A stretch of DNA of 64,000 bases from Acidobacteriota bacterium (GTDB lineage Bacteria; Acidobacteriota; Thermoanaerobaculia; Thermoanaerobaculales; Thermoanaerobaculaceae). Under the pieces are notes generated by a model. That model made no database searches and had not been told where the DNA came from. It saw only the letters and a program-made list of their open reading frames with translations. This document shows, piece after piece, positions 8,144 through 52,096 of the stretch; position 1 is the first letter of the stretch; each line of letters starts with the position of its first letter. The position numbers and the translations under genes are program-made. Location of the stretch: NCBI GenBank assembly GCA_016213675.1, contig JACQZW010000068.1, positions 1 to 64,000 on the forward strand, read 5' to 3'.

Positions 8144-8212
8144 GGGGAGTGCGGGAAGGGCGGGGAGTGCGGGAAGGGCGGGGAGTGCGGGGAGTGCGGG
8201 AAGTGCGGAAGT
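8144..8212. repeat. GC-rich short tandem repeat, unit GGGGAGTGCGGGAAGGGC
   Basis: Two exact 18-base units start at 8144 and 8162. They are followed by three shorter 9-base versions (GGGGAGTGC, GGGAGTGC, GGGAAGTGC-like). The block ends 4 bases before the stop codon (minus strand) of the gene at 8216. A related block with GAAGTGCGGGAAGAGCGG lies at 58488-58522. Confidence 0.8.
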
Positions 8213-18634: not shown

Positions 18635-18675
18635 AGAGCGGTGGAGCGGTAGAGGGGTAGAGCGGTAGGGGAGGG
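18635..18675. repeat. Short tandem repeat, unit GAGCGGTAGAGG
   Basis: Between nuoC and nuoD the sequence runs AGAGCGGTGGAGCGGTAGAG then GGGTAGAGCGGTAGGGGAGG. It is a set of four degenerate 7-to-12-base units ending 45 bases before the nuoD start. It sits inside an operon whose other junctions overlap or are 10-13 bases, so it looks inserted. Confidence 0.7.
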
Positions 18676-25182: not shown

Positions 25183-25893
25183 ATGCCGGCAGGAACGTAC
25201 GCACGCGGCCGCGCGGCTCCACCGGCGCTGCTGTGCCTTGCCGCCCTGGCGGCAGCCGCGCCCGTAGCCCTGGGCGAGACGCTCGCCTCGCGCACGCTGA
25301 TCGAGCCGTCGATGGGCATCCTCGTCCCGGTCGCCGACTGGCAGGAGGGTAGCCCCGCGGACGTTCCGTACGCCGATCCGGTCATCTCGCTCGCGACGAT
25401 CCAGAGCGAGGCGTTCGTCGGCGGGGTCCGGTTCGGCTACCTCTTCGGCGTGGGCGACGGGTCGCCCTGCTGCCTTCTCGGCCCCGAGGTCGGCTTCTCG
25501 TGGGTCGTCTGGGACCCGGACGACCCGGCGGTCGCCGACCCGTACCCGTACTCGTACGACGACCTGATGGGCCTGCGAGTCCACCTCGTCGCGGCCGTGC
25601 GCGTCATGGGCCTGTGGGACTGGGGCTGGGTGCTCGGACGCCTCGGTCTCGGGCCCGACGCCGTCACCGCCGAGTGGCATTCGTTCGACGATTTCGATGG
25701 CGACGTCGGCGTCCTGTTCCTTGCCGGGACGGGCGTGGGCTTCGCCGTTTCCGAATCGGTCGGCTTCACCCTGCTGATCGACGCGACGGTGCCGTACCAC
25801 GAGCAGGCGGACGACGAGCGCGACTCGGAGTTCTACTGGGGCTTCGGCGCGTTCGAGCTGGACTTCCAGCTCGGACTCACGATCCTGCTGTAG
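25183..25893 (+). CDS. Predicted outer-membrane beta-barrel protein
   Basis: Encodes 236 residues from the ATG at 25183, 6 bases after GGGGG. A GTG at 25168 in the same frame overlaps the previous stop (GTGA) and would add five residues. The signal peptide is APPALLCLAALAAAAPVALGE. The rest is alternating strands with aromatic girdle residues (SEAFVGGVRFGYLFGVGDG, GPEVGFSWVVWDPDDPAV, SEFYWGFGAFELDFQLGLTI), closing in LL. It is probably an 8-to-10-strand barrel. It seems to form one unit with the preceding pseudoprotease-barrel gene. Substrate or role unknown. Confidence 0.65.
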   Translation: MPAGTYARGRAAPPALLCLAALAAAAPVALGETLASRTLIEPSMGILVPVADWQEGSPADVPYADPVISLATIQSEAFVGGVRFGYLFGVGDGSPCCLLGPEVGFSWVVWDPDDPAVADPYPYSYDDLMGLRVHLVAAVRVMGLWDWGWVLGRLGLGPDAVTAEWHSFDDFDGDVGVLFLAGTGVGFAVSESVGFTLLIDATVPYHEQADDERDSEFYWGFGAFELDFQLGLTILL

Positions 25894-25914
25894 CCGGACG
25901 GGACGAAGGAAAGG

Positions 25915-25945
25915 AACCACCGATGGACACCGATGGACACCGATG
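25915..25945. repeat. Interspersed repeat with unit ACCGATGGAC, copy 1
   Basis: AACCACCGATGGACACCGAT then GGACACCGATG is three copies of a 9-base unit (CCGATGGACA). A second copy in the other orientation is at 43461-43490. In this copy the first ATG is the likely start codon of the M28 peptidase gene, so the repeat encodes MDTDGHR. Confidence 0.75.
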
Positions 25946-27731
25946 CGGGACCGCGTTTCCGAACCGCGAGCCCCGGCCCGCGGGGACGCTCATGGCGCTT
26001 TTGCTGTCCGCGCTCCTGGCCGCCGCGGCCTGCGGCGGCGGCTCCACGGCACGCGACACGGGCGACGACGTGCTCGACGCGGAAGCGGTCGAAGAGACCC
26101 TCGGGGACGAGGGCACCGACGCAGACGCCGATGCCGACGACGATGCGGACGGCGGCGCCGATGCCGACGCCGATGCGGGGGACGCGGAGGCGGAGGCCGA
26201 GGTGTACTGCGGGCCCGACCCCGACCGCATCTACGACGACGTGCGCGAGCTGGCGTCGGCCGCCTACGAGGGTCGGCTGCCGGACAGCCCGGGCGGCGAG
26301 CGGGCGCTCGACTGGGCCGAGGCGCGCCTCGAATCGTTGGGCCTCGATCCCTCCGGGGACGGCGGCGGCTTCCGGCAGGGGTTCGCCTACGACCAGTGGG
26401 GTCTCACCGCGCCCCCGGCGCTGGACCTCGGCGACGGGCCGCTGGCGCTGGCAACGGACTTCGCGGTCTTCCAGTACTCCGGCGCGGGTGACGTCACGGA
26501 GGAGATCGTCTTCGCCGGCTACGGCATGACCGTGCCGCCCTTCGATCCGGCGACGTACCCGCGCTGTCCCTTCCCGGCCGCGGGCTACGACGACTTCGCG
26601 GGGATCGACGTGACGGGGAAGATCGTGCTGCTCCTGCGCCACGGCCCGGGAGACGACTCGACCGTGCCCGACGAGTGCCCGGCGAGCGCCGCGTGCGGCG
26701 CCGCGCCGTGCCTCTGGAACTTCGGCTACAAGGCCGCGAACGCGCGGCTGCACGGAGCCGCGGCGATGCTGCTCGTGCAGCACTACGCCGAGGCCCCTGC
26801 CGTCCCCGAAGGCGTGACGCTCGACGAGTCGTACTACGACGCCGGCTTCCCGGCACTGGTGGTCGACCGGACGGTGATGGAGGCGGCGGTGCCGGACCTT
26901 CCGACCTGGGTGGGGAACATCGACGCCGCGATGCAGCCCGACACGCACGCCACCGGCGTCACGGCGACGGTCTCCGTGGGCGCCGAAATCCGTTCGGCGA
27001 GCACGGCGAACCTCGTCGCGGTGGTGCCCGGGACCGACCCGACCCTCTCGTCCGAGACCGTCGTCATCGGCTCGCACATCGACCACCTCGGCATCGACCC
27101 GCTCCTCGGCGAGATCATGCCCGGCGCCGACGACAACGCTTCGGGCACCGCGACGACGCTGGAGCTGGCCCGCAGCGTGGTCGAGTGCGGCGTCGCGCCG
27201 GCGCGCACGCTGGTGTTCATGCTGTTCAACGCGGAGGAGGCCGGTCTGATCGGGTCCTGCTACTACGTCGAGAACCCGGCGTATCCGATCGGCGACGTCG
27301 CGGCGATGTTCAGCCTCGACATGGTCGGCGCGGGGGACGGAACCGGTCTGATCCTCTACGGCGCGACCGAGTCGCGGCTGCGGTGGCTCGCGGATCTCAT
27401 GGAGGGCGCCTCGGCGGAAGCCGGGCTCACGTACGAGGTGCAGCGTGCGGACCCGTGGGACGTGTCCGACCACGCATGCTTCTACTACGCGGGAGCGCCC
27501 GCGGTCTTCGCGTTCACCGCCGGCGCGCACGACGGCTACCACACGCCGGAGGACGGGATCGGCCACATCCGTGTCGACGACCTGCAGGTCGCCGCGGAGC
27601 TGATGTGGGCGACCCTCCTGCCGCTCGCGATGGGCACCGAAGACGGCTACACGGCCAAGTCCGCCCCGCTCTTCGCCGACCCCGCCGCCCCACGCCCCGA
27701 CCTCGACCGCGAACGCCGCGTCATCCGGTAG
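25923..27731 (+). CDS. M28-family metallopeptidase lipoprotein
   Basis: Encodes 602 residues if the ATG at 25923 is used (AAGGAAAGGA stands 7 bases before it). A second ATG at 25992 gives MALLLSALLAAAAC directly. The lipobox is LLAAAAC. After an acidic linker comes a protease-associated-like insert, then the zinc site of M28 aminopeptidases: GSHIDHLG, GADDNASGTATTLELAR, FNAEEAGLIGS, FSLDMVG and HDGYHTPED. All five ligands and the catalytic Glu are present, so an active di-zinc exopeptidase on the cell surface or in the periplasm is likely. Six Cys outside the site may form disulfides. The N-terminal residues come from the repeat at 25915. Confidence 0.88.
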   Translation: MDTDGHRCGTAFPNREPRPAGTLMALLLSALLAAAACGGGSTARDTGDDVLDAEAVEETLGDEGTDADADADDDADGGADADADAGDAEAEAEVYCGPDPDRIYDDVRELASAAYEGRLPDSPGGERALDWAEARLESLGLDPSGDGGGFRQGFAYDQWGLTAPPALDLGDGPLALATDFAVFQYSGAGDVTEEIVFAGYGMTVPPFDPATYPRCPFPAAGYDDFAGIDVTGKIVLLLRHGPGDDSTVPDECPASAACGAAPCLWNFGYKAANARLHGAAAMLLVQHYAEAPAVPEGVTLDESYYDAGFPALVVDRTVMEAAVPDLPTWVGNIDAAMQPDTHATGVTATVSVGAEIRSASTANLVAVVPGTDPTLSSETVVIGSHIDHLGIDPLLGEIMPGADDNASGTATTLELARSVVECGVAPARTLVFMLFNAEEAGLIGSCYYVENPAYPIGDVAAMFSLDMVGAGDGTGLILYGATESRLRWLADLMEGASAEAGLTYEVQRADPWDVSDHACFYYAGAPAVFAFTAGAHDGYHTPEDGIGHIRVDDLQVAAELMWATLLPLAMGTEDGYTAKSAPLFADPAAPRPDLDRERRVIR

Positions 27732-43321: not shown

Positions 43322-43387
43322 GCAACCGGCAACCGGGCACAAGCACCCCGCGGCCGGCAGTGATCATCGCCCGTTGCCGGTTGCCGG
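43322..43387. repeat. Inverted repeat of CAACCGG units
   Basis: GCAACCGGCAACCGGGC at 43322-43338 is matched in inverse by GCCCGTTGCCGGTTGCCGG at 43369-43387, with one unmatched base. The 30-base spacer contains CCCCGCGGCCGG. Each arm is itself a tandem repeat of a 7-base unit. Confidence 0.65.
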
Positions 43388-43412
43388 TCGCCCGCTGCCT
43401 GTTCCCTGCCCG

Positions 43413-43444
43413 GGTCCAGGTCCAGGTCCTGGTCCTGGTCCAGG
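43413..43444. repeat. Hexamer tandem repeat GGTCC(A/T)
   Basis: Five successive hexamers, GGTCCA twice, GGTCCT twice and GGTCCA again, then GG. The order makes the block palindromic overall. Confidence 0.75.
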
Positions 43445-43460: not shown

Positions 43461-43490
43461 GCGTCCATCGGTGTCCATCGGTGGTTTCTT
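43461..43490. repeat. Interspersed repeat with unit ACCGATGGAC, copy 2 (inverted)
   Basis: On the minus strand AAGAAACCACCGATGGACAC is followed by CGATGGACGC. It shares AACCACCGATGGACACCGAT with copy 1 at 25915. It ends about 20 bases before the FHA-activator start codon. Confidence 0.75.
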
Positions 43491-43508: not shown

Positions 43509-44861
43509 ATGGCGGGCGACGAGGACACGACGGGAACAAGGCTGATCGAGCGACCGGAGGGCGCGGCGCTGCTGCTGCGGCGCGCCGAGCTGGAAGTGCT
43601 CCGCGGGCCCGACGCGGGGCGCCGCGTGCCGCTCGAACGCACCGCCATCCGCGTCGGCTCCGATCCCGACAACGACCTCGTCGTGGCCGACCCCACGGTC
43701 TCCGGGCGGCACTTCGAGATCGTCGCCGGCGAGCACGGCCGGCGCCTGCGCGACCTGGGCAGCACCAACGGCACGACGGTCGACGGCCTCCGCGCGCTCG
43801 ACGTGTTCCTGCGCGACGGCTCGGAGATCGGCGCCGGTTCCTGCCGCTTGCGCTTCACGCTCGGTCGCGACGAGCTGTCCATCCCGCTCTCGCGCCGCAC
43901 CGACTTCGGCAGCCTCCTGGGCCACAGCCCCGCCATGCGGGCCGTGTTCGCGGTGCTGGAGCGGGCGGCGAAGACCGACGCCCTCGTGCTCATCGCCGGC
44001 GAGTCCGGGACGGGCAAGGAGCTGGCCGCGCGGGCGCTGCACGACCACTCGCCGCGTCGTGCCGGCCCCTACATCGTCTTCGACTGCGGCGCGGCCGCCC
44101 CGAACCTGGTGGAAAGCCAGCTCTTCGGCCATGCGAAGGGCGCGTACACCGGAGCGGCCGACGCCCGCGCCGGCGTGTGCGAGGCGGCGCACGGCGGCAC
44201 GCTGGTGCTCGACGAGCTGGGCGAGCTGCCGCTCGAGCTGCAGCCCAAGCTGCTGCGCGTCCTGGAGAGCCGCACCGTCCAACGGCTCGGTGAGACGTCG
44301 ACCTGCCCCGTCGACGTGCGTTTCGTCGCCAGCACGAACCGCAACCTGGAGCAGGACGTTCGCGACGGGCGTTTCCGCCAGGACCTGTTCTACCGCGTCT
44401 CGGTGATCACCGTGCGCCTGCCGGCGTTGCGCGAGCGGCCCGAGGAGATCCCGCGGCTGGTGCGGCACTTCCTGGAACGCCTCGCCGGACCCGAGGCGGC
44501 GGCGCCGCCGCCCGCGACGCTCGACATCCTCCTGCACCACTCGTGGCCCGGCAACGTTCGCGAGCTGCGCAATTTCGTCGAGCGCTACGCCCTGCTCCCC
44601 GAGATCGACCCGGTGGTGCACCTCAGGGGTGCCGGGCCGCCCGCGCCCGAACCTCCCGGCGGCGCGGCCGCGCCGGCGATTCCCCTGGACCTGCCCTTCC
44701 ACGAGGCGAAGGAGCGGTGGACGGACTCGTTCGAGCGCACGTACCTCGCACGGCTGCTCGAGGCGCACGAGCGCAACGTCTCGGCCGCGGCGCGCGCGGC
44801 GGGACTCTCGCGCCAGACGATGTACCGCCTGATGGAGAAGCATGGTCTCCGGGGCGAGTGA
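43509..44861 (+). CDS. FHA-domain sigma54-dependent transcription activator
   Basis: Encodes 450 residues. Residues about 30-115 form an FHA domain, which binds phosphothreonine: AIRVGSDPDNDLVVADPTVS, GRHFEIV and DLGSTNGTTVDG. Residues about 130-365 are a sigma54-interacting AAA+ domain: Walker A GESGTGKE, the loop GAYTGA (usually GAFTGA), Walker B GGTLVLDELGEL, and the arginine-finger region FRQDLFYRV. The C-terminus is a Fis-type helix-turn-helix (RNVSAAARAAGLSRQTMYRL). So it opens sigma54 promoters when its FHA domain docks a phosphorylated partner. The next gene, overlapping by 20 bases, is a Ser/Thr kinase and the obvious partner. Start: ATG at 43509. Confidence 0.95.
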   Translation: MAGDEDTTGTRLIERPEGAALLLRRAELEVLRGPDAGRRVPLERTAIRVGSDPDNDLVVADPTVSGRHFEIVAGEHGRRLRDLGSTNGTTVDGLRALDVFLRDGSEIGAGSCRLRFTLGRDELSIPLSRRTDFGSLLGHSPAMRAVFAVLERAAKTDALVLIAGESGTGKELAARALHDHSPRRAGPYIVFDCGAAAPNLVESQLFGHAKGAYTGAADARAGVCEAAHGGTLVLDELGELPLELQPKLLRVLESRTVQRLGETSTCPVDVRFVASTNRNLEQDVRDGRFRQDLFYRVSVITVRLPALRERPEEIPRLVRHFLERLAGPEAAAPPPATLDILLHHSWPGNVRELRNFVERYALLPEIDPVVHLRGAGPPAPEPPGGAAAPAIPLDLPFHEAKERWTDSFERTYLARLLEAHERNVSAAARAAGLSRQTMYRLMEKHGLRGE

Positions 44862-48622: not shown

Positions 48623-50059
48623 CTAGCAGCCGAACCACCAGCCGCAGGTGCCGGTGGACGGGTCGCGAAGGCAGGCGGCGGCTCCGGTTGCGCCGCCGGG
48701 GCACGGTTCGGGAGCCGGCGCTGGGCCGCACTCCTCCGGGGAGCAGTCGAGCGGGCAGTCGCGGACTTCCCAGCCGCAGGCGCCGTCGGGGCCGGAGAGG
48801 CAGCGGCCGGTGGGGCCGCCGAGGCTCCCGTCGGGGCACTCGTAGTTGGGCATGCCCAGCGGCGGGCCGCACAGCTCGGGCCGGCACTCGGCCGGGCAGT
48901 CGCGGAACTCCCAGCCGCAGGCGCCGGTCGTCGGGTCGGGCAGGCAGTTTCCGGTGAAGCCGCCCAGCGTGCCGTCGGCGCAGATCCACGAAGCCATCCC
49001 GGGCATCGGGCCGCACGCGACCGGATCGCAGACCGGGGGCGGTCCGCAGACGAAGGTCCAGCCGCACAGGCCGGTCGGGTCGTGCCCGCACACGGGCTCG
49101 GCCGTCGAGCCGTCAGGGCAGATCATCGCGATCTCGGGCAGCGGACCGCACGTCTCGGGCGTGCAGGCGGGCGGGCACTCGAGAATCTCCCAGCCGCAGG
49201 CACCGTCGGGCCCGGGCAGGCAGCGCCCGGTGAAGCCGCCAACGCTGCCGTCCTCGCAGAGCACGGTCGGCATGCCCGGCATCGGGCCGCACGCTTCGGG
49301 TTCGCAGCCGGGCGGGCAATCGCGGATTTCCCAGCCGCAGGTTCCCGTCGCCGGGTCGCGCAGGCAGCGGCCGGTGTTGCCGCCCAGACTTCCGTCCGCG
49401 CAGACGTACGCCGGCATCCCAAGCGCCGGGCCGCACTCCTCCGGAGGGCAGAGCGGCAGGGTCGGGCAGACGAAGTGCCAGCCGCAGACGCCGTCCGGGC
49501 CGGGGTCGCACACGGTGTCGGCGGTCGAGCCGTCCGGGCAGCGCACCGCCGCCATCGGCATCGGACCGCACTCCTCGGGCGCGCAGATCGGCGGCGGCGG
49601 CGGACACGTCGGCTCCCAGCCGCAGGCGCCGTCGAGGTTCCTCACGCAGTCAGGGGCCGGCAGCGTGCCGTCCGGGCACGGCATGCCGGGAGGAGGCAGG
49701 GGGCCGCAGTCCTCGGGGATGCAGCGCGCGCCGTCGCAGCCCGCGAACGGCAGGCCCGCACAGAACTCCGGCGGCTCGGGCGACTCGCACTCGCGCGGCC
49801 AGGCCTCGATGTACACGGGGAAGCAGTCCGGGCGGACCGCGCAGGTCGTCTCGTCCAGCGCCGTACAGTCGTAGGGATCCGGACAGTCGCCCTCCGGACA
49901 CGGCGCCCAGCCGTCCGGGACCGACTCCTCGTCGGGATACTCGCGCGTCTCTCCCGTGCTGAGGTTGATCGCGGTGACCCCCGAGCCGGCGTCGTCCTGA
50001 CAACCGACCGACGGGCCGAGAACGGCAACGGCAGCGACGATTCCGATGAGTCCTCTCAT
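48623..50059 (-). CDS. Lipoprotein with eight tandem Cys-rich repeats
   Basis: Encodes 478 residues. Start: ATG at 50059 with AAGGAG 8 bases before. The signal is LIGIVAAVAVLGPSVGC with QD after the Cys. After an N-terminal part (to about residue 100) the rest is eight repeats of about 40-48 residues. Each contains C-x-PE-x-CGP, then C-x-DG, then C and CGW. Two types alternate: long units with GGxTGRCL and short units lacking it, in the order short, short, long, long, short, long, long, short. Each has six or seven Cys, suggesting disulfide-bonded modules on the cell surface. The protein stops within the last CGWWFGC. It resembles repeats of myxobacterial surface proteins but I cannot name the family. 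Confidence 0.85.
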   Translation of the reverse strand: MRGLIGIVAAVAVLGPSVGCQDDAGSGVTAINLSTGETREYPDEESVPDGWAPCPEGDCPDPYDCTALDETTCAVRPDCFPVYIEAWPRECESPEPPEFCAGLPFAGCDGARCIPEDCGPLPPPGMPCPDGTLPAPDCVRNLDGACGWEPTCPPPPPICAPEECGPMPMAAVRCPDGSTADTVCDPGPDGVCGWHFVCPTLPLCPPEECGPALGMPAYVCADGSLGGNTGRCLRDPATGTCGWEIRDCPPGCEPEACGPMPGMPTVLCEDGSVGGFTGRCLPGPDGACGWEILECPPACTPETCGPLPEIAMICPDGSTAEPVCGHDPTGLCGWTFVCGPPPVCDPVACGPMPGMASWICADGTLGGFTGNCLPDPTTGACGWEFRDCPAECRPELCGPPLGMPNYECPDGSLGGPTGRCLSGPDGACGWEVRDCPLDCSPEECGPAPAPEPCPGGATGAAACLRDPSTGTCGWWFGC

Positions 50060-52028: not shown

Positions 52029-52061
52029 GTCGGTTCTCGGTTTTCGGTTCTCGGTCTTCGG
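52029..52061. repeat. Heptamer tandem repeat CGGTTCT
   Basis: CGGTTCT, CGGTTTT, CGGTTCT and CGGTCTT follow each other and end in CGG, 20 bases after the ettA stop. It lies in the 107-base gap before the next gene. Confidence 0.75.
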
Positions 52062-52096
52062 TCCGGAGGTGCGTTCTGGCCCCGAGGCCCCGAGCC

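Follow-up and report, generated by a model that had tools for sequence, protein, structure and literature searches.

A dispersed array of 10-bp units found in several bacterial phyla probably supplies the start codon of an M28 peptidase gene

Background

Class 2 multicopy sites of Geobacter metallireducens consist of three tandem TCTCCGTS[Y] repeats arranged in opposite-strand pairs; 47 such sequences were described and IHF/HU or another global regulator was proposed to act on them (Aklujkar et al. 2009, PMC2700814). More families of this kind are reported in the papers on Geobacter bemidjiensis (PMC2996986) and P. carbinolicus, the former describing multicopy direct repeats of 6-42 nt that are intergenic, genome-wide and often present as several families per gap. 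In filamentous cyanobacteria, the STRR are short tandem units that are dispersed, intergenic and sometimes hairpin-forming (PMC2670836). Such word arrays were noted genome by genome in Geobacter and in cyanobacteria and left unexplained. General searches of the repeat literature returned only these Geobacter and STRR leads; the 15-mers of the repeat described here are absent from open-access literature text and 12-mers matched in unrelated papers.

Two copies of the repeat and the start of an M28 peptidase gene

The window, by which is meant the whole 64,000-nt stretch of Acidobacteriota DNA that was analysed, has four exact matches to ACCGATGGAC against a mean of 0.17 in shuffled sequence, with none of 100 shuffles reaching four. 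These matches and the positions given in Table 1 bear out the original observation of two copies with the second inverted. TRF recognized 2.8 perfect 10-bp units at 25918-25945 in copy 1. Copy 2, whose core is preceded by GAAGAAA on the minus strand, points away from the neighbouring FHA / sigma-54 activator gene and does not correspond to its start.

Table 1. Location of the two repeat copies and of their flanking genes in the window
Feature	Position	Strand	Evidence
Upstream gene, no Pfam match, ending 29 bp before ATG 25923	25183..25893	+	gene model, Pfam
Copy 1 purine arm GAAGGAAAGGAA, Shine-Dalgarno-like, ca. 7 nt before ATG 25923	25905..25916	+	
Copy 1 AACCACCGATGGACACCGATGGACACCGAT	25915-25944	+	read from sequence
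Copy 1 core CCACCGATGGACACCGATGGACACCGAT, three 10-bp units, C-type	25917..25944	+	sequence, shuffle test, TRF
Lipoprotein gene (M28 peptidase and PA domains) whose likely start ATG lies in the first repeat unit	25923..27731	+	Pfam, gene model
Copy 2 core CCACCGATGGACACCGATGGAC, inverted, two full units plus GGAC	43463..43484	-	sequence, shuffle test, TRF
Copy 2 purine-rich arm GGATACAAGAAGAAA	43485..43499	-	sequence
FHA / sigma-54 activator gene, ca. 25 bp beyond copy 2	43509..44861	+	gene model, Pfam

Other short-word arrays were detected in the window. Just before copy 2, at 43322-43444, GCAACCG/GTTGCCG heptamer and GGTCCA hexamer arrays occupy one gap, so that a single intergenic region is common to several of them. 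Further intergenic arrays are made of AGAGCGGT (18635-18668), TCGGTTC/TCGGTCT (52030-52063) and GGGGAGTGC (8144-8208), and a tandem duplication of ca. 420 bp is present in two copies at 48726-49586 (TRF score 972).

The M28 gene product matches PF04389 (E 4.8e-37) and PF02225. Since the preceding gene ends at 25893, copy 1 takes up the space that separates it from the M28 gene. Only two nearby in-frame starts are available, at 25923 and 25992, and the latter leaves the leader MALLLSALLAAAAC, 13 residues without a basic residue, which is too short and too poor in basic residues for the usual lipoprotein signal. This poor leader, together with the purine stretch located 7 nt before 25923 and the unprompted choice of that codon by the gene model, makes 25923 the best start. 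Read in this way, copy 1 probably supplies the start codon of the M28 gene and translation would begin at 25923; the purine stretch, the in-frame ATG and the codons MDTDGHR are all as first described. M28 homologs in the closest relatives are 38-39% identical and align only past ca. residue 73.

A second locus, observed in two sister species (L045 and L237), independently supports start donation. The slot is the same in both species, and its array, though made of different words, supplies ATG and opening codons to one and the same secreted protein: one protein begins with MDTDGHRWKQGTGYYPVAAGVLLFLLPSAAQAQPHHSF, derived from the repeat, the other with MGWSVGALERWSVGALSVLLLPSLALAQPHHSF, derived from a CCACGAATGG stretch and a GGAGCGTT array, and the rest of the protein is nearly the same. 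Signal peptides are thereby built from different words with the frame kept (minus strand of L045 near 1181 and of L237 near 11925).

Any unit can hold GATG and, as its length of 10 bp is not divisible by three, an array of three units can provide ATGs in all reading frames. This raises the idea that the element is a portable Shine-Dalgarno and start codon in three frames, selected for giving new N-termini. The geometry at 25905-25925 and the L045/L237 case would fit such a purpose, as would the 17 of 190 copies called as gene starts in the two sister genomes with many copies (G060 and G061, see below), several of which have a plausible alternative start, and a slight same-strand excess, with 41 copies sharing the direction of same-direction neighbour genes and 27 opposing it. 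Most copies are nevertheless located away from starts and many face the opposite way, the A-rich arm of the Holophaga copies does not resemble a Shine-Dalgarno sequence, and versions with R = A contain TGA in each unit; start-making as the purpose of the element is therefore highly improbable. The suggestion that repeats make N-termini is probable for 25923, is backed by L045/L237 and is not supported as a purpose, start donation being a by-product, or exaptation, at places where a copy landed.

Structure of the repeat

The family has the consensus AA-CCACxGATGRACACxGATGRACACxGAT, in which x is A, C or G, with purine-rich arms on both sides. When the copies of the genome that carries the window were compared, a purine stretch ending in AA was followed by the core CCAC-x-GATG-R-ACAC-x-GATG-R-ACAC-x-GAT and often by further purines. 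For the copies of G060 and G061, purines account for 79-100% at the 12 positions leading up to CCAC and also predominate beyond the core; the arms of Holophaga copies are A-rich. The strand bias of the arm before the core amounts to 0.39 versus 0.14 in random intergenic DNA (p ca. 2e-33).

Within arrays of G061, x is uniform (CCC in 38, AAA in 37, other combinations in 8) and almost never T. Copies occur singly, as direct modules (in G061 mostly at distances of 13-42 bp) or as inverted pairs, whose members are 40-150 bp apart in Holophaga and in many of the own-phylum and Verrucomicrobia genomes sampled. In G060, in G061 and in the window, copies are mostly direct or single. By manual count, an A-type module precedes a C-type one in 13 G061 loci and follows it in 4.

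Words of the same skeleton occur nearby, such as a 9-bp GAG version, CGCAGAGA, CGCTGAGA and others; the GAG version is a separate family, with 38 viral-contig stretches. The intergenic DNA of G060 (126 kb) is rich in other recurring words of 7-9 bp, for instance GTTGTTG and GACTCAC. In the Holophaga genome G064 (L194, L195 and L201), C-type and G-type copies tend to pair with opposite polarity and with different immediate flanks, with TTTGG before CCACCGAT and AGT before CCACGGAT, as would two subfamilies.

Inverted pairs fold strongly (z -3.6, -7.0 and -11.8), and a pair in L201 forms a long stem followed by a T run. Inverted pairs might accordingly be read as transcription terminators or mRNA-stabilising hairpins, a role akin to that proposed for STRR hairpins in raising transcript stability (PMC2670836). 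This is very unlikely as an explanation of the family: no hairpin of this kind can arise from the single and direct copies of G060, G061 and the window, the C-type pairs of G064 have T before and A after, which is the wrong way round for a terminator, and copies are depleted between convergent genes. Termination as a general role was rejected on these gene-context counts (see below).

Distribution across genomes

The genome from which the window comes (4.97 Mb, 95 contigs) contains four matches to the exact 15-mer, at three places, and seven copies of the degenerate family CCACVGATRRACACVGAT, which are spread over contigs C40, C43, C69 and C81; no match was obtained with the reversed pattern. 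Public genome contigs contain the identical C-type 28-mer in 83 stretches, most of them from the groundwater Deltaproteobacteria MAGs JACRCX (G060) and JACRCZ (G061) and the others from Verrucomicrobia, Leptospiraceae and Holophaga MAGs, in agreement with the earlier statement that like runs occur in other GC-rich genomes. With a degenerate 18-mer, 169 copies were counted in G060, 195 in G061, 118 in the Leptospiraceae MAG G062, 17 in G063, 51 in G064 and 87 in G065, and the reversed-pattern control gave none in any of them.

The family is patchily spread over several unrelated phyla. Within the own phylum, 54 of the 396 genomes sampled carry it, with up to 192 copies, as do 21 of 96 genomes sampled around the Verrucomicrobia MAG, with up to 102. 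An exact match was present in 4 of 60 sampled relatives, own genome counted, and most relatives in the own order lack the repeat. Arrays of three units in which x is A, C or G are present in forty viral-contig stretches, and the all-T version in none; a blastn search of plasmid records gave no match. Three IMG/VR contigs (L125, L127 and L128, sample 3300037461) contain several copies each as well as CCACAAAGGACACGAAGG arrays; they may be repeat carriers, or else bacterial sequences misassigned to viruses.

Patchiness, large differences in copy number and the presence on viral contigs would all be in line with a non-autonomous REP- or MITE-like mobile element served in trans by a transposase, with the strongly folding inverted pair as its full form and the single copy as a half. 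Several observations make this improbable. A Y1/RAYT match is lacking in G061, G064 and G136, an RT match is lacking in 7 of 10 genomes tested, including the two with the highest copy numbers, and neither can therefore be the general agent. RAYT mobilisation and reverse transcription were each rejected as candidates because the corresponding genes are missing in several carriers, and the RAYT and RT gene searches revealed no copying machinery. In addition, the RAYT loci examined hold no repeat, the interiors of inverted pairs differ from pair to pair, the single window copy is unfolded (z 0.15), and no clean empty site with target duplication was seen (see below).

Genomic context of the copies

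Gene calls in G060 and G061 were made with a codon-usage gene finder written for the analysis. There, 125 of 148 copies lie outside predicted genes and intergenic DNA makes up 9-11% of the sequence, in a set of loci partly picked by repeat presence, so that the counts given here reflect position and not density. Orientation with respect to genes shows no clear preference, the 41 to 27 split being close to even. Convergent gaps number 94 among the 615 gaps in total and contain 8 of the 116 copies that were classified, which is a depletion. We infer that most copies have no gene-specific role and are neutral, although this depletion, together with the 13 to 4 order of A-type before C-type modules, hints at a function.

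Shared and remodelled slots in two sister species

The alignable parts of G060 and G061 are ca. 88-90% identical, which allows a slot-by-slot comparison. A copy is present in G060 at each of the 14 comparable sites of G061, and 14 of 18 sites of G060 have one in G061, in an ortholog set partly found via exact 28-mers, which inflates the apparent conservation. At the other four G060 sites, G061 holds another tandem word in three cases, namely (TCCAACGC)n, (ACCGCTCC)n and a GCACTTCCCC-like array, and a decayed copy in one. The AGAGCGGT array of the window resembles ACCGCTCC. The 18 comparisons from G060 to G061 provided no clean empty site with target duplication. Recent mobility is not supported, most sites being common to both species. 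In an unbiased 0.92 Mb of G060, mismatches per copy follow the histogram 15, 5, 4, 1, 0 before the chance tail, and copies are thus mostly intact with a few decayed.

Shared slots are remodelled internally. Module number changes in steps of 46 or 54 bp, and x often switches in several or all units together (AAA in G061, CCC in G060), with few other core changes at these slots while flanks differ by ca. 18%. A pooled core-versus-flank test included several mis-registered rows and a biased choice of loci, and individual locus pairs are for this reason relied upon here and not its p-value. The occurrence of the 28-mer in several phyla and the near-invariant positions set against this flank difference exceed what plain neutral slippage would give.

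The main rival to our preferred reading, itself doubtful, holds that a conserved protein, either chromosome-organising or regulatory, binds to the array, in extension of the hypothesis made for Geobacter class 1-3 sites; CACnGAT contacts would recur every 10 bp on one helix face and paired sites would loop or bend the DNA. The 10-bp period, the invariant CAC-GAT with a variable x, the pairing of copies 40-150 bp apart that many genomes show, the scarcity between convergent genes, the better preservation of cores than of flanks at shared slots and the IHF/HU-type proposal for the three-repeat sites of Geobacter (PMC2700814) are all compatible with it. A free position should nonetheless not vary in step across units, nor exclude T: coherence of x within an array is expected from unit slippage or local conversion and not from selection acting on a site in which x is free to vary. 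The near-identity of up to 195 copies is also tighter than that of ordinary regulator sites, most own-order relatives lack the repeat, and no protein was identified.

Presence of the same word in several phyla implies either copying between genomes or a common constraint. Slippage arising separately in every lineage was rejected as the sole origin, the same word and the same CCAC beginning being found in several phyla. Also unlikely is a single, as yet undescribed, sequence-specific machinery, common to several phyla, that would read and rewrite 10-bp arrays, with most positions kept fixed, x copied coherently and related-word (CRC-N-RA-N-G) arrays exchanged at fixed intergenic slots.

Our preferred reading, to which we give a probability of about 0.5, is that of a mostly passive, dispersed, non-coding short tandem repeat whose arrays are remodelled and which would have spread by a copying route. 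The element would measure ca. 50 bp and comprise a purine arm, CCACxGATGRACACxGATGRACACxGAT and a second purine-rich arm. Spread between intergenic sites and across lineages would be rare, and a settled copy would become a lasting slot, in which the array is remodelled by unit slippage, gain or loss of modules and local homogenisation. Homogenisation would shift x in step across the units, and sometimes another word may take over the slot. Where the purine arm is G-rich and the copy lies just upstream of a gene, its ATG may be taken over as translation start, as probably happened at 25923.

With the same 28-base sequence present across phyla, a family reaching nearly 200 copies per genome and sister species in which slots are kept, rewritten or swapped, spread and maintenance of these repeats are now directly testable. 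For annotation, a predicted N-terminus MDTDGHR or MNTDEHR is a warning that the start may lie within a dispersed repeat, which may in some cases be the genuine start.

Comparison with known repeat families

REP elements mobilised by RAYT resemble the present family as high-copy, short intergenic repeats that sometimes form inverted pairs, but they have a palindromic hairpin and a resident Y1 transposase (PF01797), whereas single copies here form none (z 0.15 in the window) and several carriers (G061, G064 and G136) have no RAYT gene. The family also departs from MITEs, with their terminal inverted repeats, target-site duplication and conserved interior, since pair interiors differ and the 18 comparisons from G060 to G061 gave no empty site with a duplication.

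The family shares with STRR a dispersed and mostly intergenic location, and differs from them by a unit of 10 bp instead of the usual 7 bp, by its words and by its occurrence outside cyanobacteria; the 7-bp arrays of G060 are closer to STRR than is the 10-mer. The G. bemidjiensis repeats, compared by description and not by word sequence, are alike in their intergenic multi-family layout. With Geobacter class 2 sites the family has in common three tandem repeats per site, present in the 28-bp core, many copies and a close unit (TCTCCGTS[Y] versus ATCCGTGTYC). Those sites have an 8-9 bp unit with GAG instead of GAT, were described in one species and are mostly opposite-strand pairs at variable distance, whereas the unit here is ATCxGTGTYC, of 10 bp, with purine arms, direct modules and several phyla, and opposite-strand pairs are common in G064, the own phylum and the Verrucomicrobia sample, copies in G060, G061 and the window being mostly direct or single. 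As it departs from class 2 sites in unit sequence and from STRR in unit length, the repeat represents a new family, broadly of one kind with these; its closest known relatives are the Geobacter class 2 multicopy sites, which offer the closest published description, with cyanobacterial STRR as a looser parallel.
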